From positions 1,090,001-1,154,000 of the forward strand of contig NZ_CP136419.1 in NCBI RefSeq assembly GCF_039233145.1: 64,000 nt of DNA. The letters run 5' to 3'. Below the pieces are notes generated by a model. The model worked only from the letters and a program-made list of their open reading frames with translations, did not search any database and had not been told where the DNA came from. Origin of the DNA: Moorella humiferrea. Lineage in GTDB: Bacteria > Bacillota > DSM-521 > Neomoorellales > Neomoorellaceae. Positions 22,857-56,081 of the stretch are shown here, piece by piece. Position 1 is the stretch's first letter. Each line of letters opens with the position of its first letter. A program made the translations under genes and the position numbers.

Positions 22857-22933
22857 AGAAGGGGCAAGGCAGCTTCGCCATCCCTTAAGCTAATTTGATT
22901 ATAAGCAGTACAAGTGAGTTTCGGAGGCTAATT

Positions 22934-23206: not shown

Positions 23207-23252
23207 GGCAGAACCCGGTATGAAACAAAAAAAGCAAGGGGGAAAACCAATA

Positions 23253-23549: not shown

Positions 23550-23550
23550 C

Positions 23551-23823: not shown

Positions 23824-23837
23824 AGCGGTGAGTAGAA

Positions 23838-25310: not shown

Positions 25311-25330
25311 GAAAAAGAAACGCGAGCGGA

Positions 25331-27237: not shown

Positions 27238-27264
27238 AATCCCATAGAACAAGGTGAACTCTAA

Positions 27265-27948: not shown

Positions 27949-27952
27949 GAAG

Positions 27953-28231
27953 ATGCTCATTGCTGAAGTTACCGGCACGGTGGTCGCCACCCGTAAACAT
28001 GAAAGCCTAACCGGTAGCAAGCTCCTTCTCATCCGGCCCCTTTATGGCGGCCGCCGCGGGGAAACCCTGGTGGCCGTAGATACGGTGGGTGCCGGCAGGG
28101 GAGAACTGGTGCTGGTAGCCACCGGAAGCGCCGCCAGGATGGGCCTGGGTGTCCCCCATGCTCCGGTAGACATGACCATAGTGGGTATTATCGACCAGGT
28201 AGAAGGGGACATCAAGGGACTGCCACGCTGA
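27953..28231 (+). CDS. BMC-P pentameric vertex protein (EutN/CcmL family)
   Basis: This 92-aa protein has the family start MLIAEVTGTVVATRKHESLT and the motif VDTVGAGRGELVLVATGSAA. Pentamers cap the vertices of the icosahedral shell. It begins four bases after pduL with AAGGTGAG as ribosome binding site. Only one BMC-P gene is present, together with three BMC-H and one BMC-T, enough for a closed shell. Confidence 0.93.
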   Translation: MLIAEVTGTVVATRKHESLTGSKLLLIRPLYGGRRGETLVAVDTVGAGRGELVLVATGSAARMGLGVPHAPVDMTIVGIIDQVEGDIKGLPR

Positions 28232-28333
28232 TCTTGTGCCGGAAGGCGCCGGTACCAAAAGCTTATTTTTAGCGTTTGTGCCCTTCCGGGCATGGGTGAT
28301 TCCCAAGAAAATAAGGCCTAAAGGGGGAAAAAG

Positions 28334-29512: not shown

Positions 29513-29577
29513 CCCGATGCCGCCTTTCGCCTGGCGTAATTTCTTAGACTGCATACTTTAAAAGGAGTTGGGCAAGC

Positions 29578-31043
29578 ATGCGCTATCTTGCCTTTGACCT
29601 GGGGGCCGAGAGCGGCCGGGCCATAATCGGCACCCTGGCAGATGCCCGCCTCACCCTGGAAGAAATCTATCGTTTTCCCAACGAACCGGTACGGATCCCG
29701 GACGGCCTGCACTGGGATGTCTTACGCCTCTTTCACGAGATGAAAGAAGGCCTGCGCCGGGCTGCGGCCCGCTACGGGACGGGCCTTAAAAGCCTGGCCG
29801 TCGATACCTGGGGCGTGGACTTCGGCCTCCTGGGGGATAAAGATATTCTCCTGGCCAATCCTTACCATTACCGGGACGGCCGCACCCGGGGCGTGATGGA
29901 GGAAGCCTTCAAGATAGTACAGCGAGAAGAGATTTTTTCCCAGACCGGCATCCAATTTCTGCCTTTCAATTCCCTTTACCAGCTTCTGGCCTGGCGGCAG
30001 CAACATCCGGACCTGTTAAGCCAGGCGCAGGCCTTTTTGATGATACCCGATCTTTTCAACTTCTTTTTTACCGGCATAAAAGCCGGGGAATTTACTAATG
30101 CCACTACCACCCAGATGTACAACCCCCGCACCGGAGCCTGGGCCGCTGATATGCTGGCAAAGCTGGGGTTACCCGTTAACCTGCTCCCGGCCGTCAACCC
30201 GCCGGGTACGATTGTAGGCCAGATTTTACCCCGGGTGGCCCGGGAAACGGGAACCGGGGAGATACCAGTTATCGCCCCCGGCAGCCACGATACCGCCAGC
30301 GCCGTAGCCGCCGTACCGGCGGCAGGTCCGGATTATATGTACATCAGCTGCGGCACCTGGTCTCTAGTAGGGACGGAAGTAAGGGAACCGGTAATCAATG
30401 AACAAACCCTTAGCCTCAACTTTACCAACGAAGGCGGGGTGGGTGGTACCTTCCGGCTCCTCAAAAATGTCACCGGCCTATGGCTGGTCCAGGAATGCCG
30501 CCGTACCTGGGCGCGCCGGGGGGAAAATTTAAGTTACAGCGAGCTTACGGCCATGGCCCGGGAAGCGAAGCCCCTGGAGGCAGTTGTCGACCCGGACCAC
30601 CCCTCCTTCCTGAACCCGGAAGACATGCCGGCGGCTATCCAGGCCTACTGCCGGGAAACGGGTCAGCCGGTGCCTGGGACAAAGGGCGAGATCGTCAGGT
30701 GCGCCCTGGAGAGCCTGGCCCTGAAATACCGCTGGGTGCTGGAAAAGCTGGAGGATATCCTGGGGAAAAAGCTACCTGTCGTCCACATGGTCGGCGGCGG
30801 TACGCAAAACGAGCTCCTCTGCCGGTTTACCGCCGGTGCCACCGGGCGTCAGGTGGTGGCCGGCCCGGTGGAAGCCACGGCCGCCGGCAACCTCCTGGTC
30901 CAGGCCATGGCTATGGGTGAAATAAAAAACCTGGTTGAAGCGCGGGAGATAGTGCGCCGCTCCTTTGTCCTGAAAACTTATGATCCGGAAAATACAGGGG
31001 CATGGGAAGAAAAATATGAAGTATTTGTTAAGCTGGTGAGCTG

Positions 31044-31044
<1 letters not shown>
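29578..31044 (+). CDS. rhaB: Rhamnulokinase (FGGY family)
   Basis: The 488-aa FGGY kinase starts YLAFDLGAESGRAIIGTL, the RhaB-type nucleotide site with Ala-Glu-Ser, and has LAVDTWGVDFGLL and HMVGGGTQNELLCRFTA as later motifs. It phosphorylates L-rhamnulose at C1, feeding the class II aldolase. ATG 29578 follows AAAGGAG. This is the best single indicator that L-rhamnose is the sugar. Fuculose is chemically close and cannot be excluded. Confidence 0.88.
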
Positions 31045-33203
<2,159 letters not shown>

Positions 33204-36972: not shown

Positions 36973-38885
36973 GCTAGAAGGTGGAAGGAGGAGTGGCTGC
37001 ATGAACTCAGGTTACAACACGACGTAGGAACAATTTACATATCAATATCAAAAGGCCTTTTAGTGAGCCCAAAGATATTTACAAGTTAAAGAACACTGAA
37101 GCCATAGCAGAGATCACTACTTGATGAGCTAAAGGAAATGGCAATAAACTAAACAAATACTAAAAAGTTTAAGGAGGAGTTAATAATCATGACTGTTAAT
37201 GCCACTAAAACATTGGAGCCTTTACCTTCTGCTAACCGTGGGATATACGGCGATGCCCGTAAAAGTGGAGCAGTCAAAGAAAGTGACAAAAAAGATATGG
37301 AAGCACGTCGGAAGCAGGCGCGGACTTTTGCGAAGCAACAACAGATCGCCGAGCGGATTGCCAGTGCGACGGAGCAACTTTCTTCTGGTGTGGAAGAGGC
37401 TTCCAGCGCAGTACAAGAATTGCGCACTGCCATGGAGCAGATAGCTAGCGGGGCACAGGAGGCCAGCGGTGCTAGCCAGCAATCCCTGTCCGCTATTCAG
37501 GTTATTGGCGAAGGGGCCAAGGTTTCGGTAAAACAGACACGGGAGTCCCTTGCTCGTTGTGAAGCCATAAGGAACCTTGTGAGCCGCACGAGTGAAGATA
37601 TTGAGGTTTTGATCCAAGGGGTGGACGCCAGCGCAGCCAGGAACGAGGAGTCGGCTAGAGTAGTAGCCAAACTGGAAGAAGAGGCGTCCAAGATTGGCGA
37701 GATCGTCCGGACCGTAGTAAGGATAGCCGACCAGACAAACCTTCTAGCCCTGAACGCTGCAATTGAGGCGGCGCGGGCTGGGGAGCACGGCCGCGGGTTT
37801 GCTGTAGTGGCAGATGAAGTAAGAACCCTGGCAGAGACTTCCGAGAAAGCGGCCAGCGACATACGGAAGATAGTAGACAATGTGCAAGAAGACGTGCGCA
37901 CGGTGGCTGAAGCCATCAACAAGGCAGCTGAGGTAGCCAGGGGCGAGGCGGAAAAAGGTAAGACTATCACGGAAGAGCTTAAGAAGATTGCTACTTCTGT
38001 AGCCAAAGTAGTGGAAGGAGCTGCTAGGATTGAGCAGCTGGTCACGGAAGTAGAAAAAGCGGTAGCCGAGTTCCAGAAAGGTAGCGAACAGATAGCTGCG
38101 ACTGCTGAGGAGCAGGCCAGCGCCACTGAGCAGGCCTTGCAGGGGGTTGAGCAACAGGCCCGGGCACTAGAGGAGATAAGCAATAACAGTAATAATTTAG
38201 CCGATCTGGCTGATGAACTCAAGCACTCGACTGATGTGGTCAAATCGGCCGAGGGCCTGGCGGCAGCGGCGGAGGAACTATCCTCGGCCATTGAGGAGGC
38301 CAGCCGTTCGGCAGAAGAGATTAACGCCGCCCTAAATCAAATAGCGAAATCGGCAGAGCAACAGGCATCGGCTTCTGAGGAATCCTCCGCCGCCATCAAG
38401 CAGATCGAAAAATCGATGGGAGTAATTGCGAAGGAGGCCGATGAGTCTAAAACTGCAGTACAGGAACTTAGTGACTTGCTGGCTGAGAACAAAGTCAGGG
38501 TAAATGAGTTGATTAAAGGGATCAGGCAGGCGGCAGCCACCAACCTTGAGAACGTACAGAAGGTTAACCAGCTTGAGCGGAACGCCCGCATGATCGACAA
38601 GATAGTAGACACCATAGCGAGCGTAAGCATCCAGACCAACATGCTGGCGGTAAGCGGCGCTATAGAGGCAGCCCGGGCCGGCGAGTACGGTAAGGGATTC
38701 GCGGTAGTAGCTTCAGACATCCGGAACCTTGCCCAGGAGAGTGCCCGCAATGCCGAGCAGATCAAGTGTTGATTGTCAATAGAATTGACCCACTATGTGC
38801 AAATAAAATTGACCCACTTGGGAACAAAAATAATAAGCTTCAAGTCATGCGCCAAAGGGAATGAAGGTATAGTCTCGCTGCCGAA

Positions 38886-39644
38886 TTAACGGTCGTTGGC
38901 TGCTTTCAGTTTACCTTTGAGCCGGTAGCTAGTGCCGTTAATATAGAAAATGCGGGCGTGATGCACAAGCCGGTCAATTATGGCCGCAGCCACCACTTGG
39001 TCGGAAAATATCTCCCCCCATTCGTTGAAGTTATAGTTGCTGGTCAGGATAATGCTCCCCTTCTCGTAACGCATGGAGACCAGGCGGAAGAGGAGGTTGG
39101 CCTGTTCTTTAGTTACGGGCATGTAGCCGAGTTCGTCGATGATTAAAAGGTTCAGCCGGGAGTAACTCAGCAGCTTGTCGAGGAGGCTGCCGTCTTTGGC
39201 GCTCAAAAGTAGTTCTTCTAAAAGCTTCTGGGCCGTGATAAATGCTACCCGATATTTAGCCATGCAGGCCTTGATACCTAAGGCCACTGACAGATGCGTC
39301 TTGCCGACCCCAGGGGGACCCAGGAAGATGATATTCTCCTTTTTCTCCACAAAATCCAGGGAGCCTAAAGCGATAATTTCTTTTTCCCGGATGGATGGTT
39401 GAAAGCTAAAGTCAAATTCCTCCAGGGTTTTGATAAAGGGGAAACGTGCTTTATTGATTTTCGTCTTGACCGTGCCTTCGTTTTTCCTTTTTAACTCCTC
39501 TTCAAAGAGGAGGGAGAGGTATTCGGTATAAGAGAGGTTGTTTTGCGAAGCCTTCTCTGTTACCTCCTGGTAATGGGCGAGCATCCCCTTTAGTTTTAAG
39601 GCCTGCATCTGATTTTCCAGATAACAGGTTAATTTGTTGCTCAT
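38886..39644 (-). CDS. istB: IstB-like ATPase, IS21 transposition helper
   Basis: The 252-aa AAA+ ATPase has Walker A GPPGVGKTH and Walker B LLIIDELGY, and the N-terminal helical region typical of IstB. It binds target DNA and activates the IstA transposase. Its start overlaps the istA stop by four bases. Confidence 0.93.
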   Translation of the reverse strand: MSNKLTCYLENQMQALKLKGMLAHYQEVTEKASQNNLSYTEYLSLLFEEELKRKNEGTVKTKINKARFPFIKTLEEFDFSFQPSIREKEIIALGSLDFVEKKENIIFLGPPGVGKTHLSVALGIKACMAKYRVAFITAQKLLEELLLSAKDGSLLDKLLSYSRLNLLIIDELGYMPVTKEQANLLFRLVSMRYEKGSIILTSNYNFNEWGEIFSDQVVAAAIIDRLVHHARIFYINGTSYRLKGKLKAANDR

Positions 39645-41128
39645 GATACTGCCGCCACCTCGCTCTCCTTTAGGGCATAACAGGAGAGGTCCCGTTTGAT
39701 TTTACCTGGCGGCATATTGACACTTGCGGGGTCACAAGTATAAGAAAGCGGGGCGACTGCTTTCTGCTCTAAGAGCCTTTTTACGCTGTTTTTGTGATAA
39801 GAGCCGATTTTCAAGCATTCTTTGATGGCTGCTATGATATCTTCCCGGTTGTATATGTCTTGGTAGCTTAAGATTTCTGCCAGGTGCCAGTACAGGTTGG
39901 CCCCGTTCTTATCACGCAGGCCTTCCAGATACCTTTGGCCGTCTTCGCCGAAGGCGCTGATAAACTTCTCCACCAGGGCCGAGCGCAGTTTCAGTTTCTT
40001 TTCCTGGTATTGACGGTTGATGGTTTCGTGTTCGGGGTGAAGGGGACGGGCGGTTTGTTTTTTAAGGTCAAGGTCGAACTCCCCTAAAAGCGCACCTGCC
40101 TCGTCATATACCTTCAGGCGCCGGCCGTAGATGTTTTCGACCCACACCCTCCTTAAGCAGTAGCGCATAGGTACGGGGTAGAGATTGCCGTCATGGGATA
40201 TATAGCCGTCATTGCTCACCTTCCGGGGTTCTTTATGGTGTAAGAAGGCCGGTTCGACAGCAGGTATTTGGAGAAGGCATCCTTTTTCCTCGGCAAACAT
40301 CTCCTCCGGCGGTCGGCCTAAGCTGCTGTGGGGCCTCTTGTTGTAGGCTTCCTGGAACTCGGAAAGCTTTACAGCGAATTCGTTCAAGTCCCCCACCTCC
40401 AGGCCCCGTAGCAGGTGTTCCTGGACATAGTAAAAGGGGCGTTCCACCTTTCCCTTGGTCCGGGCACGGTAGTTGGCGCAAGCCGAAGGCTGGATGCCAT
40501 ATAGCCCGCAGAATTTGAGGAACTCATCATTGTACCGGACGATACCGTCTTTTTGGTGGGTGATGACCATTTGCTTGCCGTTGTCTATCACCAACTCCGG
40601 GGCATAACCGCCGAAGAAGTCAATGGCCTCAACCAGAACCCGGATCACGTCGGCGGTGGTGATGCTTAAAGAGAAGGTATAAAATTTCATCCGGCTAAAG
40701 GATAAGACCACCTCGTGGAGATATATTTTCAGGGGCTTCCCGTCTACCGGTAACGTCCACACCTTCCAATCGTACTGCATCTGCTTACCCGGGCCGGTTT
40801 CCACCCGGGTGGTAGCTAATTTAGCTGCATTATCTTCTGCCTTTATGGACCTAAGATAACGGTGGACGCTGGCTAGGGAGCCTTGATAGCCCTTATCTTT
40901 CAGTTCTTTGTAAATCCTTGTGCCGATATATCCCTTGGCAAGCATAATCTTGATTTCTTCCAGAAACTTGTCCAGTTCTTTAACGTACTCCCTAGCTTTA
41001 AACTGGGGCGGGCCGGCTTCTTTCAGGTACTTCCTGACGGTATTCCTGGACACCCCAACATCCCTGGCTATTTGCCTGATGCCGACCCCTTGAGCATGCA
41101 GTGCCTTGATGCGCTGCCATTTGTACAT
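39641..41128 (-). CDS. istA: IstA-like transposase, IS21 family
   Basis: The product of about 495 aa has an N-terminal helix-turn-helix (GVGIRQIARDVGVSRNTVRK) and an integrase core with acidic residues in QMQYDWKVW and VIDNGKQMV plus a later Glu (RTKGKVERPF). ATG 41128 follows AGAGGTGG; GTG 41137 is possible. No frame damage is visible. Confidence 0.92.
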   Translation of the reverse strand: MYKWQRIKALHAQGVGIRQIARDVGVSRNTVRKYLKEAGPPQFKAREYVKELDKFLEEIKIMLAKGYIGTRIYKELKDKGYQGSLASVHRYLRSIKAEDNAAKLATTRVETGPGKQMQYDWKVWTLPVDGKPLKIYLHEVVLSFSRMKFYTFSLSITTADVIRVLVEAIDFFGGYAPELVIDNGKQMVITHQKDGIVRYNDEFLKFCGLYGIQPSACANYRARTKGKVERPFYYVQEHLLRGLEVGDLNEFAVKLSEFQEAYNKRPHSSLGRPPEEMFAEEKGCLLQIPAVEPAFLHHKEPRKVSNDGYISHDGNLYPVPMRYCLRRVWVENIYGRRLKVYDEAGALLGEFDLDLKKQTARPLHPEHETINRQYQEKKLKLRSALVEKFISAFGEDGQRYLEGLRDKNGANLYWHLAEILSYQDIYNREDIIAAIKECLKIGSYHKNSVKRLLEQKAVAPLSYTCDPASVNMPPGKIKRDLSCYALKESEVAAVS

Positions 41129-41636
41129 GCTGACCACCTCTTGTTCCTCCCCCTCTCAGGGGGGATTTTATCACAAGATTAGGTGGGTCAGTTTTATTTG
41201 ACGATCTAGGGTCAATTCTATTTTACGATCTACAATCAAGGAAATGGTAAAGGGTATTCAAGAACAAGTGATGAACGTACTCCGGGACATTACTTCTATT
41301 GGAGATGTAGTTCAAAAGGAAGCGGAAAAAGCCCAAAAGACAACGGCCGACCTTGACCTTATTGAAACCGATATGCGGGTGGTCGTTGAGGGGGTGGAAA
41401 TGGTTAAAAAGCAGGCAGATGAAAGCCTCCTAAGGGTAGAAGAGGCAGCCAAAGGAGTAGAGCAGATAAGTACGGCTGCCCAGGAAGCCAGTAAAGCGGC
41501 AGAAGAAGCAGCAGCCGCCAGCCGCCAGCAAGCAGAAGGCATGAAAGAGCTTGCCCAGGCTATCGAGGAAATTGCAGCTCTGGCGGACGAACTCCAGCAG
41601 GGCTAAAGAAATCGGAGTGAACGAGGAGGAAGGTAT

Positions 41637-43145
41637 ATGGCAATAGCCGGTGGGTCGGTTGCAAGCCTTGACCAGTACGTGATCTTTCGTCTGGGACAGG
41701 AAAGCTACGGCATAGCGATAGAATACCTCCAGGAGATCATTCGTGTTCCATACGTGGTGAAGGTACCCCTGACGCCCCCGTACATGCGGGGGCTCGCCAA
41801 CCTGAGGGGCAACATTCTCCCGATTTATGACACCCGCCTGCGGTTAGGCATAAATGCTACGAATGATGACGAGAGCAACCGGGTGATAGTGGTTAATGCC
41901 GGAGGGAAGCAGGCGGGCTATGTAGTGGATCGGGTAGAAGGCGTTGTAGATATTCCGGGAGAAGCCGTAGAAGAATTCCAGAAAAAAGGTGATACTGGAG
42001 GCTACGTTACCAGGGCAGCACGTGTGGGCGAAGGCAAGCTCGTCCTTCTTTTAGAAATGGACCAGATGCTTAAAGATGTTGGTTTAAACGACAGCAGTGT
42101 GACTTCCCTTAAAGACACTAAAGAGTACGAGAACCTTGGTGCGAAAGAAGAAGAAAGTAAGGCCGACGAAAACGAGCAACAACTTTTGACTTTCCAAGTA
42201 GGAAAAGAAGAGTATGCTTTGGACATTGCCGACGTTCAAGAAATAGTGCATTTACCGGAAAACTGGAATGTGGTTCCTGATGCTCCTCCTTATGTACTGG
42301 GATTGGTGTCATTGCGGGATAGGGTTTTACCCCTTATAAGTATGAGAAGGCTTTTCGGTCTTCCGGAAGGAGAAGTGGCCGGTGGCAGGATAGTAGTCGC
42401 GTACGTGGGGGAAGGCAAGAGAGTAGCGGTTGGTCTAGTAGTGGACAGCGTAGCCGAGGTTTTGAGGGTGGCAGAGCGTTTATTGGAGCCTGTGCCTGCA
42501 GTTGTGAGGCGTAGCGGGGACGAGTTTGCCGCCATTTGCCGGCTAACCGACGAGCGCATGTTATTTACAATTGAAGCCTCCAGACTTTTGCGCGACGTGA
42601 CATTTCTTACGGAATGGGAACAAGGCGGAGCAGATGAAGTCAGTGCATATAGCCATAAAACGCTGGAAGAGGAGCGGCAGCTTGTGACTTTCTTCCTGGG
42701 TGAAGAAGAGTTTGCCCTGCCCATAGACAGCGTACGCGAGATAATTCGCGCAGGGCGTATAACCGCCGTACCCAGGACGCCTGATTTTGTAAAAGGGATA
42801 TTGAACCTTCGCGGGAGCATAGTGCCGATTATCGATTTGCGGTGCAAATTCGGCTATCCCGAGAGAGAAATAGATGAACAGGTACGAATTTTAATCTGCG
42901 AAGGGAATACTTCGGTGATGGGCCTTATGGTCGACGGCGTAAAGGAAGTAGTCAAAATTAGTGTGAGCAGCATTGAAGCCGCACCGCAAGTTTTAGTGAA
43001 GGACAGTATCCAGTCTTTCGTGGCAGGGATAGCCAAGTTTAACGACGAGCGTAACGTAATACTTTTAGACCCGGCGCGGGTAATGTCCTGGGAAGAGGGC
43101 GCCGAACTTATGGAAGTGGTGGAGGAGACGGATATCAGCGGATGA
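41637..43145 (+). CDS. Triple-domain CheW-like coupling protein
   Basis: The 502-aa protein consists of three CheW domains: about 10-150 (LRGNILPIYDTRLRLG), 183-325 (LRDRVLPLISMRRLFG) and 352-490 (LRGSIVPIIDLRCKFG). Acidic linkers join them. A normal CheW has one domain of about 150 aa. Three domains in one chain could bridge several receptors or CheA P5 domains in an array. Domain 2 is the most divergent at the LRG motif. The 3' end overlaps cheB by four bases. Confidence 0.9.
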   Translation: MAIAGGSVASLDQYVIFRLGQESYGIAIEYLQEIIRVPYVVKVPLTPPYMRGLANLRGNILPIYDTRLRLGINATNDDESNRVIVVNAGGKQAGYVVDRVEGVVDIPGEAVEEFQKKGDTGGYVTRAARVGEGKLVLLLEMDQMLKDVGLNDSSVTSLKDTKEYENLGAKEEESKADENEQQLLTFQVGKEEYALDIADVQEIVHLPENWNVVPDAPPYVLGLVSLRDRVLPLISMRRLFGLPEGEVAGGRIVVAYVGEGKRVAVGLVVDSVAEVLRVAERLLEPVPAVVRRSGDEFAAICRLTDERMLFTIEASRLLRDVTFLTEWEQGGADEVSAYSHKTLEEERQLVTFFLGEEEFALPIDSVREIIRAGRITAVPRTPDFVKGILNLRGSIVPIIDLRCKFGYPEREIDEQVRILICEGNTSVMGLMVDGVKEVVKISVSSIEAAPQVLVKDSIQSFVAGIAKFNDERNVILLDPARVMSWEEGAELMEVVEETDISG

Positions 43146-44209
43146 AGACCATACGGGTACTAGTAGTAGACGATTCAGCGTTCATGCGAAGAGTTATAAG
43201 GCAAATACTAGAGGGGGCACCCGATATCGAAGTAGTGGACGTGGCGCGGGATGGGCAGGAGGGTGTGGAGAAGGCCATCACCCTCCAGCCCGACGTGGTC
43301 ACCCTGGATATCAACATGCCCCACATGGACGGCCTTACTGCCCTGCAGCATATAACCTCGAAGACAACCGCCAAAGTAGTCATGATTTCGTCACTGACCC
43401 AGGAGGACGCGCTCATAACGTTTGAAGCACTCGAACTCGGGGCGGTGGACTTTATAGCAAAACCGGACGGCACCATTTCGTTGGGTATAAGCAGGCTTGC
43501 GGATGAGATTATAGGTAAGGTCCGGGCGGCGGCCAGGGCTAGGGTGCGCAGGAGAACGCCCGGGAGAAAGGTTCCCCGCGTGGAAAAAAAGGTCGCCGAA
43601 AAACCAGGCGCCGCAGCTTCTGTCGCGGGCCTGGACTGGGTAGTAATGATAGGCGTATCTACGGGAGGGCCCAGGACGCTGGAGGACATACTGCCGCACC
43701 TGCCCGGGGATCTGCCGGCGGGAGTGGTAGTGGTGCAGCACATGCCGCCGCGTTTCACTGCAAGTCTGGCGCAACGTCTTGACCAGTACAGCAAGCTGCA
43801 TATATGTGAGGCCCAGGAGGGAATGAAATTAAGCAACGGTCTGGCGGTAATTGCTCCGGGGGGTTACCATCTTATGTTCAGGCGGCAGGGCAGCGGCCTT
43901 ACATGCTGCCTCTCTCTTAAGCCGGAAGACGCTCAGTTCCGGCCTTCAGTAGATGTAACCCTGCATGCGCTAATGAAAGCCTATGACCCCAGGCGAACCA
44001 TTGGTGTACTTCTCACAGGAATGGGGGACGACGGTGCAGAGGCGATGGTAGAGTTAAGGAGGCGCGGCGGGTGGACTGTAGCTGAGAGCGAGGAGACAGC
44101 GGTAGTATGGGGTATGCCCCGTGCCGCGATAGAACGCGGGGGCGCGGACGTAGTAGCCCCCAGTTATCAGATAGCGGACATTATACGGCGGAAAGTCGGT
44201 GGGAGGTAG
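43142..44209 (+). CDS. cheB: CheB protein-glutamate methylesterase
   Basis: This 355-aa protein has a receiver domain (D10, D11, phosphorylated D56 in TLDINMP) and a C-terminal methylesterase with the catalytic Ser in GVSTGGPRTLE, His in QHMPPRFT and Asp in LTGMGDDGAEA. It removes methyl groups from receptors and deamidates Gln. It is paired with CheR two genes on. Confidence 0.94.
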   Translation: MKTIRVLVVDDSAFMRRVIRQILEGAPDIEVVDVARDGQEGVEKAITLQPDVVTLDINMPHMDGLTALQHITSKTTAKVVMISSLTQEDALITFEALELGAVDFIAKPDGTISLGISRLADEIIGKVRAAARARVRRRTPGRKVPRVEKKVAEKPGAAASVAGLDWVVMIGVSTGGPRTLEDILPHLPGDLPAGVVVVQHMPPRFTASLAQRLDQYSKLHICEAQEGMKLSNGLAVIAPGGYHLMFRRQGSGLTCCLSLKPEDAQFRPSVDVTLHALMKAYDPRRTIGVLLTGMGDDGAEAMVELRRRGGWTVAESEETAVVWGMPRAAIERGGADVVAPSYQIADIIRRKVGGR

Positions 44210-44211
44210 CC

Positions 44212-44805
44212 ATGGAAGAGTTAACAACGTTTATAGAAGAGTTTGAGAAGGCCAGGGATGTAGCTGACCGCATAAATTTGGTCTGTAAGATAGGATCTTC
44301 GGGAGTTCCCGGTACGGCGAAAGTTTTGGTTGAGACGTTTGCTCGTGAGGGGGATGTAGTGGTAAGGGAAGCTATTGTGGGTTCGCTTCTCTCGTGTGAC
44401 ACGGAAGAAGTAATGCAGGAGGTCGTGCCTCTTTTGAAAAGCGAAGATGCGTCCCAGCGGAGCATGGCTTTCGATGTGCTTACATACAAGGCGGATGAGA
44501 AGGCTTTGGGTATTTTTGAGGGCCTTCTTCACGATGCTGACCGTGATGTGAGGGTAATGACAGTCCATGCTTTAGGCCGGAGCCGGTGCCCAGGGGTCTT
44601 AAGTCTTCTGCGGAAAGTAGCTGCCGAAGACGAGGATATAAACGTAGTGGGAGCCGCAGTCGAATACATAGGCGAGATAGGGGAGCGGGGGGACGTGGAA
44701 CTAGTGCAGCAGTGCAAGGAAAGGTTTGATCACCCGTATCTTGATTTTATAGTCGCGAGGGCCTTGATCCGCCTTGGCGGAGAGCCCGGTAAAATTGCCA
44801 GCTAA
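44212..44805 (+). CDS. HEAT-repeat protein of the chemosensory operon
   Basis: This 197-aa all-helical protein has at least four HEAT-like units (for example SQRSMAFDVLTYKADEKALG and DRDVRVMTVHALGRSRCPGV). ATG 44212 follows GGGAGG and lies two bases after the cheB stop. It probably acts as a scaffold binding another Che protein; no enzymatic residues are visible. Its place between cheB and cheR suggests a part in adaptation. Confidence 0.75.
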   Translation: MEELTTFIEEFEKARDVADRINLVCKIGSSGVPGTAKVLVETFAREGDVVVREAIVGSLLSCDTEEVMQEVVPLLKSEDASQRSMAFDVLTYKADEKALGIFEGLLHDADRDVRVMTVHALGRSRCPGVLSLLRKVAAEDEDINVVGAAVEYIGEIGERGDVELVQQCKERFDHPYLDFIVARALIRLGGEPGKIAS

Positions 44806-44826
44806 GGGTTTCAAAGGAGAAGAGCG

Positions 44827-45630
44827 ATGACCAAGGCAGAGTTTGAACGCTTGCGAGATTATATATATCGAGAGTCGGGCATCTACTTTGAAGACAATAA
44901 AGTTTACTATGTAGAAAAGCGCGTTGAGCAGCAAATGGAGAAGTACGGGTTTAAGGATTTTACAGCTTACCTGGGAGCCCTAAGATTTGACAGTACAGGC
45001 AAGATGCGCCAGGAACTACTGAACAGTTTAACTATTAACGAAACGTATTTTTTCCGCGAGTACGAGCAGTTAAAGTGCCTGGCGGAAGAAATCGTCCCTC
45101 TCTGGTGCCAGAATGGTGTAGGACGACAGGGAGTCAAGATTTGGTGCGCGGGATGCGCCTCCGGGGAAGAAGCCTATACCCTGGCTATCGTGATGCAGGA
45201 GATGGCGCCGGACATACCCTGGGAGATATACGCCACCGATATAGATACGGAGGTTTTAGATAAAGCCGAGAAAGGCATTTATAATCACTATGCCATCCGC
45301 CAGGTGCCAGAAGTCTATCTCAAGCGCTATTTTGTTCGACTGGGTGATAATTACGCTATTGCATCCTTGATTAAGCGAAAGGTCACTTTTTCCCACTTAA
45401 ACCTTGTAGACGATGCGGGAATGCGGAAGATGCAGGGCTTTCACGCCATATTCTGCCGTAATGTCTTGATATATTTTGACGACCTTTCTCGCCGCCGGGT
45501 GGCCCTGCAATTTTACCAGGCCTTGGAGTCAGGTGGGTACATATTTTTAGGTCATTCGGAGTCTATGAGCCGGATAACCACCCTGTTTAAGCCGGTACGG
45601 TTTAAAAATGCTATTATTTACCAGAAGTAA
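44827..45630 (+). CDS. cheR: CheR receptor methyltransferase
   Basis: The 267-aa enzyme has the N-terminal helical domain with TINETYFFRE and the SAM site WCAGCASGEEAYTLAI, followed by IYATDID and FCRNVLIYFD. It methylates receptor glutamates using S-adenosylmethionine. No TPR or pentapeptide-binding extension is present. Confidence 0.95.
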   Translation: MTKAEFERLRDYIYRESGIYFEDNKVYYVEKRVEQQMEKYGFKDFTAYLGALRFDSTGKMRQELLNSLTINETYFFREYEQLKCLAEEIVPLWCQNGVGRQGVKIWCAGCASGEEAYTLAIVMQEMAPDIPWEIYATDIDTEVLDKAEKGIYNHYAIRQVPEVYLKRYFVRLGDNYAIASLIKRKVTFSHLNLVDDAGMRKMQGFHAIFCRNVLIYFDDLSRRRVALQFYQALESGGYIFLGHSESMSRITTLFKPVRFKNAIIYQK

Positions 45631-45655
45631 TACTATTAGGGGGGAGTAAAGGCTC

Positions 45656-46054
45656 ATGGCACGCGTGCTTATTGTTGACGACTCGAGTGCGGTGCGAGCG
45701 TATCATGCCAGCATTCTCGTAAAGGATGGACATCAGGTAGACTTTGCGGACAACGGCTATGAAGGCCTGGAAAAGTTTTGTGCGGCTGATTATGATGTGG
45801 TGCTGGTAGATATTAATATGCCCAGGATGCACGGTTACGATATGGTGCGTGCGATACGCAGAATTGAGCGGGGCCAGAAAGTGGGGATTATCGTAGTTTC
45901 AACGGAAGCTGATTCTAAGGATATGGTTGAAGGTTACAAAGCCGGAGCCGATCTTTACATGGTCAAACCGGTCAAACCAGAAGAACTAAAACAGATATGT
46001 ACAATGTTCAGCCCTATGAAGGGCGAGGGCAATGATGTCGGCGAGGGAGCGTAA
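45656..46054 (+). CDS. cheY: CheY-like response regulator
   Basis: This 132-aa single receiver domain has D8/D9, phospho-acceptor D52 (LVDINMP), S82 in place of the usual Thr/Ser and K104 (VKP). A short Gly/Glu-rich tail follows. ATG 45656 follows GGGGGGAG. It is the likely output or phosphate sink of the split CheA. With no output domain, its target must be another protein. Confidence 0.92.
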   Translation: MARVLIVDDSSAVRAYHASILVKDGHQVDFADNGYEGLEKFCAADYDVVLVDINMPRMHGYDMVRAIRRIERGQKVGIIVVSTEADSKDMVEGYKAGADLYMVKPVKPEELKQICTMFSPMKGEGNDVGEGA

Positions 46055-46055
46055 T

Positions 46056-47489
46056 ATGGAAAAGGGGTCCAAAACTTTAAGAATTACGGCTGGCGAGCTT
46101 GGGAGCCGCGATGTGTGGCCTTTGCTACGGGATATGGAGGAAAAAGGATGGCTTGAACGTTTAAATCTTCTGGATTGCGGGGAAGGATACAGCCTGGAAA
46201 TTGAAGTCAGGCCTGAGCAAGACATAGAACTTTGCGAGCGACTAGTCAAGGATTACCTCGAGGGCAAAACGGTCTTAGGTGATACACCTCGTACAACTCG
46301 TGATGTAGGGAGGGAGATGATAGAGTCTCAAACAGTCAGGGTAGAACAGGGCAAAATTGACAGGCTTCTAGCTCTAGCGGGCGAGCTTATAGTTAGCACC
46401 AACGGGCTCACTCATCTGGTAAGACGTCTGGAAGACTTAGGTTTACCGGTTGAAATGGTGAGGGAGATTAAAGAATACCAGTCGTTGCTTAACCGGGCCA
46501 GTTGGGAAATACAAGATGTAATTATGGAAATGCGGCTTATGCCGGTGGGTTTTGTATTTGAGCGGTTTCGCCGGGTGGTACGGGAACTGGGACAGGAGCT
46601 GGGTAAAAAGGTTCAATTTAAAGTACTTGGCGATGACGTGACGATAGACCGCAACGTTGCCGCAATTATATATGAACCTTTACTACACTTGATCCGCAAT
46701 ACCCTTGATCATGGTTTGGAAAGGTCGGAAGAAAGAATACGGTCAGGAAAGCCGGAAGAAGGAGAACTTCTTTTACGAGCGGAACGCAAGGGGGAACACG
46801 TAGTTATAGCAGTAAAAGATGACGGTGCGGGGATCGACGTTGAAGCTGTTAAGAGTAAAGCTGTTAGCCGGGGGTTAATAACTAAAGAGCAAGCCGAGAA
46901 GATGGGCTTTAATGAAGCGCTGGAGCTCATATTTATACCGGGTTTTAGTACAAAGGACGAGGCCAGCACGGTTTCTGGCCGGGGAGTAGGTATGGACGTA
47001 GTCCGGGAAACGGTCGAACGGTTAGGCGGCAAGGTAATTGTGCACAGCGAATTGGGGGTTGGGACAGAGGTAGCCCTGGAATTGCCTATCACGATGAGCA
47101 TTACCAAGGTTGTACTCTTGGATTGCGGCGGTTTATATGGAATCCCTGTAGGGGAGGTCAAAGAGATAGTAAAGGTCGAAGCGTCCAGGCTGCATTCTTT
47201 AAAAGAGAGTGAAGTAGTGGTCTTGAGGGGAACCATATACCCCGTGTTCCGGCTTTCCCGTGTGCTTGACTCTAGTGTAGAGGGGGTAGATGGCAATGAA
47301 CTTACGCTGATAGTCCTATTGGCAGGTGTCGCAGTAGCCGTACCGAAAGTTTTAGGTGAACAAGATGTAGTGTTGAAGAACCTACCAACCCAGCTTTCTC
47401 ATTTGAAACTGTTTACCGGTGCGGCAATACTGGGGAACGGGGACATTGCTTTGATTTTAGATACTAGTATCATTGGAAGGATGGTGTAA
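46056..47489 (+). CDS. cheA: CheA histidine kinase core lacking the HPt domain (P3-P4-P5)
   Basis: This 477-aa protein starts with about 90 residues of unclear fold. It then has the dimerisation domain (VEQGKIDRLLALAGELIVST), the ATPase domain (LIRNTLDHGLE, DDGAGID, GRGVGMDVV) and a CheW-like P5. There is no phosphorylatable His domain; the following gene provides it. ATG 46056 follows GAGGGAG and lies one base after the cheY stop. An ATG at 46032 has no ribosome binding site. The split layout recalls CheA3/CheA4 of Rhodobacter. Confidence 0.88.
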   Translation: MEKGSKTLRITAGELGSRDVWPLLRDMEEKGWLERLNLLDCGEGYSLEIEVRPEQDIELCERLVKDYLEGKTVLGDTPRTTRDVGREMIESQTVRVEQGKIDRLLALAGELIVSTNGLTHLVRRLEDLGLPVEMVREIKEYQSLLNRASWEIQDVIMEMRLMPVGFVFERFRRVVRELGQELGKKVQFKVLGDDVTIDRNVAAIIYEPLLHLIRNTLDHGLERSEERIRSGKPEEGELLLRAERKGEHVVIAVKDDGAGIDVEAVKSKAVSRGLITKEQAEKMGFNEALELIFIPGFSTKDEASTVSGRGVGMDVVRETVERLGGKVIVHSELGVGTEVALELPITMSITKVVLLDCGGLYGIPVGEVKEIVKVEASRLHSLKESEVVVLRGTIYPVFRLSRVLDSSVEGVDGNELTLIVLLAGVAVAVPKVLGEQDVVLKNLPTQLSHLKLFTGAAILGNGDIALILDTSIIGRMV

Positions 47490-47495
47490 ACTCTA

Positions 47496-48383
47496 ATGGC
47501 TATTGACTTGATGCGTGAGTTTCTAAATGAAGCCCACGAGCAATTGGATATGTTAGAGCAACTGTTTTTAAAGTTAGAGGAAAAAGATGATAGAACTATT
47601 GATGCGATCTTCAGGATTGCCCACACCCTAAAAGGTTCGGCGGCTTGTGTAGGACTAAAAGAGGTGGCAGATTTCGCCCATAAGATGGAAACTTTACTTG
47701 ATAGCCTCCGGAAAGGAGAAGTGGTGATAAGCGAAAGCGTTTGCAACCTTTTGCTACAATCGGGAGATGTTTTAAGGGCGTTAATACATGGAGTTGAGGA
47801 AGGGCTGGAGAATTATGTTCCTCCGGAATACACCACGATAATCAACAAACTTGAGCATGCCTCTGATGAGAATATTATCCCGGTACAGGATAATAACAAC
47901 GCCTGTATGAAATTATTTGTACGGATTGGGCTTGACCTGGCTTCAGAAATGCGTGCCGCCAGGGCGTTTGTGATACTGAAACGATTGGAAGATATAGGCA
48001 GATTGAAGATTTCACGGCCTTCAGAGAACGACTTGCTCAACGGGCAGGTAGTTCCCAACGCCATAATAGCAGTTGTAGAAGGCGACATCGAGGAAGAAGA
48101 TCTCTATGAGTGTATAGCGGGATATCCGGACGTAACGGACGTTGATGTTAGGTATATGGTGGAAGTCCGGGAACCCGATTGGATGAGATATAAGGAATAC
48201 GGATGTATACTGGAATCAAAAGGAAAACGCATAGTCCTCGACTTCATGTCCGGTACATTAAAGCTTGATGGTGGTGCTTTGGGGTTTCTTGGCGAAGCCC
48301 TACGACGCGGGTGGCTCCTGTATTCAAACGACGACCTAACTTTTAGAGTGTTAAGCCGACTAACGTTAAAGCAAGTGGCTTGA
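47496..48383 (+). CDS. HPt phosphotransfer protein, detached P1/P2 part of CheA
   Basis: The 295-aa protein opens with an HPt four-helix domain with H43 in FRIAHTLKGSAACVG. About 160 residues with two ferredoxin-like halves follow (e.g. VFVILKRLEDIG-type CheA P2 pattern), then a C-terminal part of about 50 residues I do not recognise. Together with the upstream kinase it makes a complete CheA in two chains, encoded in reversed domain order. The gene starts six bases after the kinase stop. Confidence 0.82.
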   Translation: MAIDLMREFLNEAHEQLDMLEQLFLKLEEKDDRTIDAIFRIAHTLKGSAACVGLKEVADFAHKMETLLDSLRKGEVVISESVCNLLLQSGDVLRALIHGVEEGLENYVPPEYTTIINKLEHASDENIIPVQDNNNACMKLFVRIGLDLASEMRAARAFVILKRLEDIGRLKISRPSENDLLNGQVVPNAIIAVVEGDIEEEDLYECIAGYPDVTDVDVRYMVEVREPDWMRYKEYGCILESKGKRIVLDFMSGTLKLDGGALGFLGEALRRGWLLYSNDDLTFRVLSRLTLKQVA

Positions 48384-49716: not shown

Positions 49717-50403
49717 GTGAAGTTCGTGCGTAAGATAGGTATCACCGGAAGAGTATACGGTGCTCTTATCGGACTAGTTATGTCAGGTTTATGCATTACT
49801 ATATGTTATTTATTTCCTATATGGTGGTGTTTATATTGGTTACCAATACTATACTTTCCTATCGGATTCTGGATAGGATACACTTATGACCGCATTAACG
49901 CTTTGGCCAACTTTGATTGCTTAACTGGCGTAGCTAACAGAGGGCTATTGATGAGAACACTATACCGTTGTCTTAATAAGGCTGCTAACTCCGGTACTCC
50001 GCTGTCAATTATATTTATAGACATCGATAACTTTAAGCAGATCAATGATATCCATGGACATGACCAAGGTGACCTTGCCCTTAAAATCGTTGCTAGGGAG
50101 ATTAAAGCAAATCTAAGATCGACAGATATTGCGGGTAGGTTCGGAGGAGATGAATTCGTAATTATCTGTCCAGGAGCCTCGAGGATCCAGAGTGAAGCAA
50201 TAGCCAGGAGGGTAAAAAAATCCATAGAATGCAAAGCCTTTGGTACCTTTGGTAATATTAAACTAACTATATCAACTGGAATCTCAGTGTATCCTGAAGA
50301 TGGTAGTACCATAGATAAGCTTCTAAGTTTCGCCGACAAAGTTATGTACCGTAATAAAGAAAAGCGGTGTTTGGCCGGTGGCGTTAGTGTAAAATTACAA
50401 TAG
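49717..50403 (+). CDS. Membrane diguanylate cyclase (GGDEF)
   Basis: The 228-aa protein has two N-terminal transmembrane segments (about 11-57) and a GGDEF domain with the intact active motif at 143-147. An RxxD inhibitory site (R134-D137) is correctly spaced five residues before it. It makes c-di-GMP from two GTP and should be product-inhibited. No sensor domain is present beyond the short membrane hairpin. GTG 49717 follows AAGGAGG. It lies just beyond an operon headed by a c-di-GMP riboswitch. Confidence 0.92.
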   Translation: MKFVRKIGITGRVYGALIGLVMSGLCITICYLFPIWWCLYWLPILYFPIGFWIGYTYDRINALANFDCLTGVANRGLLMRTLYRCLNKAANSGTPLSIIFIDIDNFKQINDIHGHDQGDLALKIVAREIKANLRSTDIAGRFGGDEFVIICPGASRIQSEAIARRVKKSIECKAFGTFGNIKLTISTGISVYPEDGSTIDKLLSFADKVMYRNKEKRCLAGGVSVKLQ

Positions 50404-51909: not shown

Positions 51910-52825
51910 CTAAACCAACTGGTTAAAAAAGGACCCTGGAGGCAGCAGAACAGACCAAAGGCTTGCAGTGTTTATAAGCCCCCACCAATTGTAAGGGGGT
52001 AGGTAAGTGGTATTTAGTTGTGGTAAAGGGTTGGCAAAGGTAGTTAAGGGGCTGGTGGAGATCTTCTGTGCGTTAAACCCGGCTGTCACGGCCAAGCCGT
52101 TGACACCACTGAAAGTAGTCTCTACCAGTCCCAAGTTATTTTGGAGGGCGCTGGTAAGGACAGTTTGGTTAACGGCCAGGGTACCGTCCGGGTTCTGGGT
52201 AACGCCTATGGCGGCTAGGTTCGAGGCTTGATAACTATAGCTTTGCTTTAAAATAGAAAGCAACTGCGGGCTGATATACTGCGAATTTTGCGCCGTAAAG
52301 GTCACCAGGTTGTTATAAGCCGTCACGAAATTGTTGATGGCATTGCTTATGGCCTGGGTATCAGGGGTGACCGTAATAGTAGCACCAGTTACCGGACCCA
52401 AGAGATTCAATGTAAGCCTACGGTTGTCCAGGTATATGGTGTTGCTTTCGGAAGTGTAAGGGACACCATTGAGGGTGTAACTAGCATTGGCTGCCGCAAC
52501 CGAAACCGTGTTAGCCTCAGTATAAGCGACAGCATTGCCAGTTACATCGGTTAAGGTGAAAGCATTACTGGTACCGGTATTATTGGCAGTTAAAACCAGG
52601 CGGCTGGTACCGGCTACAGTATCGGTAGCTACATTGGCGTTAACCGGCGCGCCGGTAGCATTTATGGCATTGGCCATGTTAGTGAGCACAGTCAGGTTGG
52701 TATCCCCGGGGTTAACGGTAAAGGATATGGCGTAAGTCTTGCCGCCTGCTTGAAGGTTGAAAGTGACCCTCCCCCGATTTGTAGGACACAGAGTTAAGAG
52801 TGTATAATCAGAGTAAGGAGGCGTT

Positions 52826-53137
52826 GTGTCCATGGGGGAGCAAAGAAGAAAATATGACGAAGAGTTCAAGCGCAATGCCGTCGAGCTATGCCGCACCAGC
52901 GACAAAACCGCCAGCCAGATTGCTTATGACCTGGGTATCAACAGCAGCATGCTCAACAGATGGCGCAGAGAACAAGAAAAGTATGGAGAACGAGCTTTTC
53001 CCGGGTTAGGGAAACAGATGCGCGGCACCGAACTTGAAGAAGAAAACCGCCGCCTGAAAAAAGAACTGGCCATCGTCCAGGAGGAACGAGACATCTTAAA
53101 AAAAGCAGTGGCCATCTTCTCCAAAACACCGAGATGA
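52826..53137 (+). CDS. IS3-family OrfA (helix-turn-helix subunit)
   Basis: This 103-aa (or 101-aa from ATG 52832) protein has a helix-turn-helix ([20 protein letters not shown]) and a leucine-zipper-like C-terminal helix ([20 protein letters not shown]). It binds the element's ends. Its stop codon overlaps the OrfB start in ATGA, so OrfB is made by coupled initiation or frameshift fusion. Confidence 0.92.
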
Positions 53138-54009
53138 AATATCGGTTTATCCGGGAGCACACGGGAACTTTCCGTGTCGAGACGATGTGCCGCGTATTAA
53201 AGGTGTCCCGGACAGGATATTACCGCTGGTTAAAAAAGCCCGTAAGCCAGCGTAAAATCCAGGATGAAATTATCAAAGAAAAAGCAGAGCATATCTACAA
53301 CAAGAGCCGCAAAACCTATGGCAGTCCCCGTATTCATAAACAGCTCGGCAAGGAAGGTATTCATTGCGGCAAAAAGAGGGTAGAGCGGCTGATGCGCGAA
53401 GCGGGCATCCAGGCCATCCAAAAACGCCAATTCAAGGTGACTACCGACTCCAGGCATAATCTGCCGGTAGCCGAAAACATCTTAAACAGGGAGTTTACCG
53501 CCAGTAGCCCTAATAAGAGATGGGTAACGGATATAACGTATATCCCTACCGAAGAAGGCTGGCTGTACCTGGCGGCGGTTATGGACCTCTATTCCAGAAG
53601 GATTGCAGGTTATTCAATGCAGAAATATCTAACCCGGGAATTGGCGATTGAGGCCTTAAACAATGCCGTCACCAACCGCCGGCCGGGCCGGGGACTAATA
53701 ATCCACTCCGACCGCGGCAGCCAGTATGCGAGCCATGATTATCAGCAATTGCTGCAGCAATATGGCTTTATCTGTTCCATGAGCCGAAAGGGAGATTGCT
53801 GGGACAACTCCCCTATGGAAAGTTTCTTCAAGACATTGAAGACGGAACTCGTCTACCATCGCCGTTTTAAAACCCGGGCAGAAGCCAGAGTGGAAATCTT
53901 TGAGTACATTGAGGTTTTTTATAACCGGTTCAGGTTACATTCTTCCCTTGGGTATGCGACACCGGAAGAATTCGAGAAAAACTATGAGAACCTGAGAAAT
54001 GTGGCTTAA
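53134..54009 (+). CDS. IS3-family OrfB (DDE transposase)
   Basis: This 291-aa integrase-type transposase has the HTH_21 region ([18 protein letters not shown]) and the DDE core: D in [10 protein letters not shown] in [11 protein letters not shown] and E in [14 protein letters not shown]. All catalytic residues are intact. Confidence 0.94.
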
Positions 54010-54498
54010 GTTGGTGTCCTATTTATCGGGGGAAGTCCAAAGTATATGTACCTGGCGTAAGCCCGGTAGCCGCGGCGCTGGTCAGGGATATGCCTATATT
54101 TTGCTGGGCAGTGGCGATCTGGCTTATGCTTATAGCATAAGTAGATAAAGTTGCATCTGGCTGGGCCTGGGCAGTAACGGTGTTAGGAGCAGATGAAGTT
54201 GCTGTTCGCTGCAAGAATACGTTATTGCTGGTGCTAAGCTGCAATGGCTGGGAAGCCTCCCAAAGCTGGCGGGCATAGTTACTCAGAGTGACCAGGCTAT
54301 TGGCCAAAAGGGAAGGCTGCTGCCGGGTCCAGCTATTTACCCATAAGGCTTCCTGGGCAATGTTGATCGGGGCTACAGGTTGAGAATAGTAAGAAGGTGC
54401 CGCTGGATTTAAAAGATAACTTACCAGCCAGTAATTAGGGTACCAGTAATTGCCGTACACCGGGCTTACCATGCGAAACCATCTCCTCGGCAACCCAA

Positions 54499-54813: not shown

Positions 54814-55067
54814 AATTAATACTATTACCTGCAAAAAGCAAACCTTCCCGCCTTTACAGCCGCAGCTTAACTGCTTTCCTCAAAAGTCCAACCTGCAACT
54901 TTTTACCACAGGGAAACTTTTTTAGCCGGGCTATTTGCAATGCCGGTCCCCTCTGGAAGTCCCAGCTGCGCGCGCCTCCGCACACCGGTTCCCTAAAAAC
55001 TGCAGAAATGATGAGACTTTATTATCCAGCAGCCCTGTAATACTGGTACTTGCAGGGGGCGCATAAA

Positions 55068-56081
55068 ATGGGCAAAGGGCAAGGACTGTATAGTGAGGGC
55101 ATCGCTAACAAATGGGCTATTAATAATCTTATTTTTACCTCCCCTGCGGCCAAAATGCTCTTGCGGAGCGCAGCAGTTTTATCACTGCTGGCCGTCACAA
55201 TGTTAAACAATCATGCCCGGAGCCTGTCTTACCAGATCGTTCTTGATTTTCTCTACCTCGGGCCGGTGACCGTCGCCGCCTGGAATTCTCTTCTTGAAGG
55301 CTTGACGTTTGCCCTGATTGCCGTCTGCCTGCGCATGATTACGAACCCCCTGGCTTTTTCGGCAATGAGGGCCAGCGATTATATCGATTTTCTAGTAGTA
55401 ATGGTTTTTTATCTAATCGTTCCTGTTACCATCGAACTCTTAAGGCGCCTGGCCCGGCAGCGCCAGCAATTGCGGCGCAACCTGCAATTGACAACGGAAG
55501 CCTTGCTGGAGGCCCTACAATTGCGCGACCAGTATACCGGCCGGCACTCGCGCCAGGTAGCTAGATATGCGCGCTGGATAGCAGCCAGCTTAGGCTTATC
55601 GCCGCACTTCCAGGAGTACCTTTACCTGGCCGGGCTACTTCATGACATCGGCAAGATTGGCGTTGACGACGCCTGCTTGAATAAGCCCGGTGCGTTGACG
55701 CCAGAAGAATGGCAGGCCATCCGCCGCCACCCCGTACTGGGCTACAGGATAATCAAAAAAGTAACAGGCAATCAACAAATCATTGCCCGGGCAGTCCTGT
55801 ACCATCACGAGCGGTATGACGGCCGCGGCTATCCCAGGGGCTTGAAAGGCACGGCCATCCCCCTGGAAGCCCGCATTTTAAGCGTGGCAGACTGTTTTGA
55901 CGCCATGACCACTGACCGGGTTTACCGGCAGGCCATGGCTCCTTATGAAGCCGTGGAGGAATTGCGGCGCTGTGCCGGCAGCCAGTTTGATCCGGAAATA
56001 GTGGATGTTTTCTGCCGCATCCTGGCAGAAAACGCCCTTATCCACCCTCGGGAGGAGGAAAAAGAGGTAAACAGTCTTTAG
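55068..56081 (+). CDS. Membrane HD-GYP phosphodiesterase
   Basis: The 337-aa protein has four or so N-terminal hydrophobic segments (to about 125), a short coiled coil, and an HD-GYP domain with H192-D193 (LLHDIGKIG) and HHERYDGRGYP at 246-256. HD-GYP enzymes hydrolyse c-di-GMP to pGpG or GMP. ATG 55068 follows AGGGGG. It opposes the GGDEF enzyme at 49717 and so sets the ligand level for the nearby riboswitches. Confidence 0.9.
   Translation: MGKGQGLYSEGIANKWAINNLIFTSPAAKMLLRSAAVLSLLAVTMLNNHARSLSYQIVLDFLYLGPVTVAAWNSLLEGLTFALIAVCLRMITNPLAFSAMRASDYIDFLVVMVFYLIVPVTIELLRRLARQRQQLRRNLQLTTEALLEALQLRDQYTGRHSRQVARYARWIAASLGLSPHFQEYLYLAGLLHDIGKIGVDDACLNKPGALTPEEWQAIRRHPVLGYRIIKKVTGNQQIIARAVLYHHERYDGRGYPRGLKGTAIPLEARILSVADCFDAMTTDRVYRQAMAPYEAVEELRRCAGSQFDPEIVDVFCRILAENALIHPREEEKEVNSL

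Follow-up and report, generated by a model that had tools for sequence, protein, structure and literature searches.

The domains of the chemosensory kinase CheA are spread over two adjacent genes in Moorella humiferrea, which raises the question of whether the two products work as one kinase and how such an arrangement came about. The pair lies in a window of 64,000 nucleotides, the whole stretch of DNA analysed here (G000:C1:1090001-1154000; genome G000, 2.67 Mb). A sequence-only reading had proposed a CheA split in two with reversed domain order. Pfam bears out the split, with P3-P4-P5 in one ORF and P1-P2 in the next; the core gene comes first, and it is the order of the genes that is reversed, whereas the order of domains within a protein is not.

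The kinase core and its phosphotransfer partner

The two genes and their terminal domains are as follows.

46056-47489, + strand: CheA kinase core P3-P4-P5, without P1/P2 (Pfam, motifs, solved-structure homology)
46071-46280, + strand: N-terminal alpha/beta domain of the core, predicted as β-α-β-β-α (AlphaFold2 model)
47496-48383, + strand: stand-alone P1-P2 phosphotransfer (HPt) protein with His43 and a STAS-like C-terminal domain (Pfam Hpt, P2)
48150-48380, + strand: STAS-like C-terminal domain of the HPt protein, approximately residues 219-295 (AlphaFold2, VIA, hhalign)

The core ORF spans 46032-47489 on the + strand, and its likeliest start is the ATG at 46056, with GAGGGAG just 5' of it. 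With residues numbered from 46032, Pfam detects H-kinase_dim/P3 at 99-167 (E 1.9e-13), HATPase_c/P4 at 216-353 (E 1.2e-16) and CheW-like/P5 at 367-479 (E 2.1e-15), and neither Hpt nor P2 at E ≤ 1. All four ATP-site motifs are found (RNTLDHG, DDGAGI, GFST and GRGVGMD, which we take to be the N, G1, F and G2 motifs), and the kinase motifs of the core are intact. From P3 onward the protein is homologous to the solved CheA cores 3ja6 (E 6e-85) and 1b3q (E 1.4e-84), and the closest named relative among the matches listed is the CheA core of Moorella mulderi, which is 90% identical. The HPt gene starts 6 nt after the core gene on the same strand. Its product contains Hpt at residues 4-96 (E 5.3e-19) and P2 at residues 142-219 (E 6.3e-11), and Pfam finds no CheW-like (P5) domain in it at E ≤ 1. 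The sequence HTLKGSA begins at residue 43, making His43 the candidate phospho-acceptor on a protein separate from the core, as had been noted from the sequence.

The operon and its state in this strain

The pair is preceded on the + strand by further chemosensory genes, and 37189-48383, with small gaps or overlaps, reads as one operon in the order receptor (interrupted), triple CheW, CheB, HEAT-repeat protein, CheR, CheY, CheA core and HPt. It is an accessory chemosensory operon with the following upstream features.

37189-38772, + strand: 5' part of a soluble receptor gene, two MCP signalling regions, severed by an insertion (Pfam MCPsignal)
38767-41234, - strand: IS21-type element with inverted ends (Pfam IstB_IS21, E 2.8e-82, and rve)
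38886-39644 and 39641-41137, within the IS21-type element: istB and istA, respectively
41244-41606, + strand: 3' part of the receptor gene (MCPsignal below cut-off; 92.5% identity with the last part of the gene that is intact in G005)
41637-43145, + strand: triple-CheW protein, 502 aa (Pfam CheW, E 4.3e-106, three stretches)
43142-44209, + strand: CheB, REC and methylesterase (Pfam)
44212-44805, + strand: HEAT-repeat protein (Pfam HEAT_2, E 6e-16, scanned as a longer reading from 44107 that overlaps cheB)
44827-45630, + strand: CheR methyltransferase (Pfam CheR, E 6.8e-55)
45656-46054, + strand: CheY-like single receiver domain (Pfam Response_reg, E 6.5e-29)

The receptor ORF is split by the IS21-type element, whose junctions, read in the sequence, are flanked by the duplicated 6-bp target ATCAAG (38761-38766 and 41235-41240); the remaining operon genes are open. 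Pieced together from 37189-41606 and its relatives, the operon receptor is soluble-looking, about 640-650 aa long and contains a tandem of two similar MCP signalling regions, and intact relatives in L037, L014 and L015 measure 639-650 aa. A match of about 500 aa to the triple-CheW protein is present in every family locus that covers the gene, in two stretches in G005, while the G002 contig stops short. A second, intact receptor of 642 aa, 92-95% identical to that of the operon, lies at G000:C1:1839825-1841753, next to a fragment comprising the first 62 residues of the triple CheW. This region (L092, G000:C1:1839573-1841753) is a segmental copy of the operon start, 92-96% identical to it in DNA. 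The receptor encoded there might stand in for the broken one in the array.

Elsewhere in the window, fliD (51910-54493, - strand) is interrupted by a second element (52826-54009, + strand), with FliD_C and FliD_N in separate ORFs according to Pfam; the element carries rve and HTH_21 and is presumably of the IS3 type. The strain may be non-motile. The 8 kb that follow the HPt gene encode a GGDEF protein (49717-50403) and an HD_5-domain protein (55050-56081). Positions 22056-32168 hold a bacterial microcompartment cluster with two BMC shell proteins, an aldehyde dehydrogenase and a PduL-type acyltransferase, flanked by ORFs that were judged by eye to be transporter- and kinase-like.

Conservation across genomes

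A complete CheA, in a frame of 697-787 aa with P1 and core matches, is encoded in all 11 genomes of the genus Moorella, eight of which pass the quality filter, whereas the bare core is found in four of the 11; two of the seven genomes lacking it are less than 90% complete. Across the phylum, the alignment search with the core, restricted to the best four candidates per genome, matched 23 of 398 genomes (E ≤ 1e-108). The match covers the whole length including the N-terminal domain in eight of these and begins at query position 61-101 in the other 15. The corresponding search with the HPt alignment (best six candidates per genome) matched 97 of 398 genomes at E ≤ 1e-36, and 12 of the 398 encode a stand-alone HPt, with E ≤ 1.6e-93 and frames of 297-387 aa among the same best six candidates. 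The best match outside these 12 has E 3.5e-52 and sits in a 711-aa frame, and the remaining matches, taken by score and length, lie at E ≥ 3.5e-52 in frames of 437-819 aa. Together with a locus from Desulfovirgula (L015), the 12 genomes, window included, give 13 loci; L013 and L014, from the same contigs as G002 and G013, were left out of the counts.

The HPt gene lies directly downstream of a CheA gene at all 13 loci, more often than chance would give, so that a small set of anaerobes shares the arrangement. The CheA beside it is without a usable P1 in 12/12 genomes, being a bare core in eight and longer in four. The bare core is open in seven of its eight genomes and the adjoining HPt in all eight, and among the aligned rows cores are 55-90% and HPts 42-85% identical to those of the window. 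The order MCP-CheW3-CheB-HEAT-CheR-CheY-CheA-HPt is retained where covered, with gene losses: in the G005 operon (L038, 855-5240) the core contains an in-frame TAA and neither cheY nor HEAT was matched, that of G084 (L079, 5881-13746) likewise lacks cheY and HEAT matches and has its receptor in two frames, no separate cheY was matched in the G350 operon, and in G002 the HEAT gene is shortened and the contig stops 0.7 kb past it. The exchange of HPt partners that the sequence-only reading had envisaged is not supported: the genome contains only two Hpt domains at E ≤ 0.001, the second of them within the complete CheA at G000:C1:302.6-304.6 kb, and each stand-alone HPt of the 12 genomes adjoins its own P1-less CheA.

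Longer CheAs and the origin of the split

The longer CheAs (771-786 aa) belong to G133, G240, G350 and G167. In alignments, the N-terminus of the G133, G240 and G167 proteins is P1-like with the HTLKG motif gone, and Pfam detects no Hpt at E ≤ 1 in those of G133 and G167, the two scanned. Profile comparison with hhalign relates these N-termini to true P1 at P 2.7e-5 and 7.8e-6, with controls at 0.29 and 0.35. The CheA of G350 (L082, 9019-11331) has a CheY-like receiver domain (REC) in the P1 position and a stand-alone HPt alongside. Related operons in G140, G068, G048 and G314 encode a complete CheA with P1 (detected by Pfam in G140, G048 and G314 and by BLAST in G068), and no separate HPt was matched in their 18-kb loci.

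The core tree was built from 32 rows: nine bare cores, four longer CheAs, nine complete CheAs of the operon type (including one truncated where its contig ends) and ten other complete CheAs, among which L117 was counted. L112 (G306), with its cheA in two frames, was left out of all trees, and L111, with a frame cut at a contig end, out of the P1 trees. Bare, longer and complete operon-type CheAs share one side of a branch against the ten others (100/100); the bare cores group together at 100/100, the longer four at 84/87 and the complete operon type at 80/72. The joining of long branches, bare cores and outgroup included, drew a warning from the program. Unrooted trees of P1 and of P1+P2 place the stand-alone HPts with the other complete CheAs, away from the complete CheAs of the operon (98/97 and 100/100). 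Constraining the HPts to group with the operon's complete CheAs is not rejected in the P1 tree (p-AU 0.24), where the nine bare-core HPts already sit with them at 93/82, and the P1+P2 tree is already compatible with that grouping at 73/59. For the 13 HPts as a whole, the trees neither establish nor reject a common origin (p-AU 0.14, 0.16 and 0.43).

Because the longer CheAs carry a histidine-less P1-like or REC domain beside an HPt, the split likely arose when a separate HPt gene took over, and not by domain reversal, and the longer CheAs are plausible candidate intermediates. Simple fission of the operon's own CheA was considered as the sole story and is unlikely: P1-P2 follows the core, and a worn P1 persists in the longer CheAs. 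Neither the P1 nor the P1+P2 tree is rooted, and neither rejects the alternative; the HPt may therefore derive either from a duplicate of the P1-P2 in the operon's CheA or from a P1-P2 captured from a different CheA, with sequence similarity suggesting capture.

The terminal domains

Both proteins carry a small additional domain. That of the core is predicted to fold as β-α-β-β-α (AlphaFold2 from the single sequence, pLDDT 72), and the residues 5' of P3 gave a Pfam family match in none of the four homologous fragments scanned (E ≤ 10). It compares with the P2 of the HPt protein at P 0.046, with the P2-like domains of longer and complete operon-type CheAs at 0.16-0.72 and with the P2 of other complete CheAs at 0.55 (hhalign); the P2-like domain of longer and complete operon CheAs is itself P2-related (P 1e-6). 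Across these five comparisons (P 0.046-0.72), homology of the core domain to P2 is not established, and homology to the HPt C-terminal domain was likewise set aside (P 0.11). Foldseek returned nothing at E ≤ 0.001, the 50 VIA rows contain no CheA and just common alpha/beta arrangements (Z ≤ 7.9), and the profile search against solved structures gave rows all at E ≥ 0.47. The domain is possibly a remnant of the P2-like domain of operon CheAs, a worn P2-type domain for which the direct profile comparison is not significant.

The tail of the HPt protein, about 75 residues additional to P1 and P2, is predicted as β-α-β-α-β-α with pLDDT 87.8 (AlphaFold2, four-row alignment). STAS proteins make up seven of the top 11 VIA rows for this model (4xs5, 6m36_D, 2ka5, 3mgl, 1thn_B, 3oir and 6jhk), with rmsd 3.0-4.6 over 77-90 aligned residues and with Z 5.2-6.9, a range also reached by models without clear relatives; they are tied with 2fb6 (Z 6.9), which is not known as a STAS protein. 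Here, 2ka5, 3mgl, 3oir, 6m36 chain D and 1thn chain B are taken by us to be STAS proteins. Profile comparison with the seven STAS proteins gave P 0.0028, with four controls at P ≥ 0.25, while comparison with RsbR/RsbS rows alone gave P 0.11 and that of the HPt C-termini of one group with those of the other P 0.19. Pfam finds no STAS or STAS_2 above cut-off in the HPt protein of the window, with sub-threshold STAS_2 matches (E 0.19 and 0.23) in the HPt proteins of two relatives. A sequence search of solved structures returned eight rows up to E 10, none named STAS, and Foldseek gave nothing at E ≤ 0.001, nor was any of the 50 rows listed named STAS. The tail is therefore termed STAS-like, not STAS.

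Stressosome-type neighbours

RsbR- and RsbS-type STAS genes lie within 7 kb of the operon at six of the 13 loci (G001, G016, G055, G133, G240 and Desulfovirgula). All of these except Desulfovirgula, where the stretch ends at RsbS, have RsbT-type, PP2C-like and GGDEF genes next in the module. These names derive from Pfam in G001, Desulfovirgula (RsbR) and the window genome and elsewhere from BLAST to the genes of the window genome; the PP2C-like gene has a sub-threshold SpoIIE match in the window genome (E 0.0062) and none in G001. G055, G133 and G240 show the series RsbR-RsbS-RsbT-PP2C-GGDEF-(CBS)HD-HD_5-receptor-CheW3-...-HPt on one strand, that of G055 including an ORF on the opposite strand and that of G240 having its GGDEF gene in two frames. 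The window genome has a stressosome-type module at 1833.4-1836.5 kb, about 700 kb from the operon and beside the second receptor, and G005 has one on another contig. RsbR was not found in G002, G013, G084, G350 and G167 at E ≤ 1e-15, and it was matched in six of 14 further genomes without a stand-alone HPt, in three of the six by the STAS part only. An RsbR at any genomic position accompanies 8/13 stand-alone HPts versus 0/4 complete-CheA operons (Fisher p 0.08); as the rows are related, no association is claimed.

The linked module resembles the stressosome RsbR-RsbS-RsbT with a diguanylate cyclase, having STAS, switch-kinase-type, PP2C-like and GGDEF genes in the same order; unlike the split CheA proper, it is a neighbour of the operon. 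According to work cited in PMC4976288, the Moorella thermoacetica stressosome regulates c-di-GMP via a diguanylate cyclase. The RsbS of the window genome matches Bacillus subtilis RsbS (6jhk, E 7e-24) better than M. thermoacetica RsbS (3zxn, E 1e-14), so that this protein and the studied M. thermoacetica one may be paralogues. We consider it unlikely, if worth stating, that the array and the stressosome feed one c-di-GMP decision, in which the HPt tail would dock on the RsbR/RsbS STAS shell or the switch kinase RsbT, or compete for their partners, the phosphorylation state of His43 would tune the stressosome and diguanylate cyclase, or the reverse, and the split would free the HPt to travel between complexes.

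Proposed working and rival explanations

The core and HPt genes together probably encode one CheA of the accessory operon, with phosphotransfer in trans and a split brought about by HPt takeover. The phosphotransfer, partner specificity, direction of evolution and output that we infer would run as follows. The core would dimerise via P3, and P5, the triple-CheW protein and the soluble tandem receptor would tie it into a receptor array. Using ATP, it would phosphorylate His43 of the neighbouring HPt protein in trans, P2 would help to hand the phosphate on to the CheY and CheB of the operon, and CheR/CheB adaptation would act on the soluble receptor. The output may be c-di-GMP, to which the GGDEF and HD genes nearby point, rather than a flagellar switch; since no cheY was matched in the operons of G005 and G084 (2/13 loci), CheY cannot be the local target there. 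As for evolution, a stand-alone P1-P2 gene downstream of a complete CheA would have taken over phosphotransfer, after which the CheA's own P1 would have lost its histidine (G133, G240, G167) or been replaced (G350), and the Moorella-type lineage would have dropped the P1 of CheA and been left with the small N-terminal domain.

The sequence-only reading had named a second full-length CheA as a possible true partner. Such a CheA exists, at G000:C1:302.6-304.6 kb, where it has cheW and cheB neighbours of its own and presumably serves flagella, and the P1-P2 of the HPt protein is closer to that of complete CheAs of this elsewhere type than to that of the operon's own complete CheAs; the HPt might then be served mainly by, or shared with, the distant kinase, coupling two pathways. 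We regard this as quite unlikely. The complete CheA is in every genus genome and the core in four (with two others less than 90% complete), yet the HPt accompanies the core or its longer kin in all 12 genomes and lies in the same operon as the core here, 6 nt away. Because the complete CheA has its own cheW and cheB and falls into another CheA lineage in the core tree, it does not displace the neighbouring core as the likely HPt partner.

Breakage has been weighed at two levels. That the pair is an ordinary cheA interrupted by mutation, mis-assembled or a relic would fit the broken receptor gene of the same operon, the internal stop codon in the G005 core and the one complete-type cheA in two frames (L112, G306), but point mutation cannot produce an order in which P1-P2 follows the core, and the open frames and identities reported above for core and HPt make this reading highly improbable. 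Decay of the operon in this strain, with signalling lost since the IS element split the receptor, is somewhat unlikely: the insertion with its target duplication, the patchy occurrence of the core in the genus and the losses in G005 (core interrupted by a stop, cheY and HEAT unmatched) speak for it, whereas an intact receptor of 92-95% identity is encoded beside stressosome-type genes and the window's other operon genes are open.

Relation to known split CheAs

Core-only CheAs are rare, with 11 split versus 470 complete CheAs quoted in PMC3591291. In Rhodobacter sphaeroides CheA3/CheA4, as described in PMC3591291, PMC6829392 and PMC2829493, the kinase P3-P4-P5 and the P1 histidine are on separate proteins that act in trans, and CheA3 joins P1 to its own P5 by a 794-residue linker with CheY6 phosphatase. 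The Moorella core protein is likewise without P1, which resides on a separate protein; unlike CheA3, this P1 protein has no P5 of its own and carries P2 and a STAS-like domain, in keeping with the earlier view that the arrangement differs from that of Rhodobacter. In Synechocystis, PMC7656254 describes PilL-N/PilL-C (Hik36/Hik43), a CheA homologue of the pilus system encoded in two distant genes; the Moorella CheA is also in two genes, but adjacent ones. The split CheA as such is already known, and what sets the present one apart is the P1-P2-STAS-like partner without P5, the candidate intermediates and the stressosome neighbourhood. In the open-access literature searched, neither this CheA-HPt family nor its stressosome linkage was found described.

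How the rare split CheAs originated is poorly understood. CheAs with a histidine-less P1 beside an HPt that has the histidine are candidate living intermediates, which make the path to a split kinase testable. Additionally, the linkage of the operon with stressosome-type genes in five genera suggests that two well-studied sensing machines may share one output.
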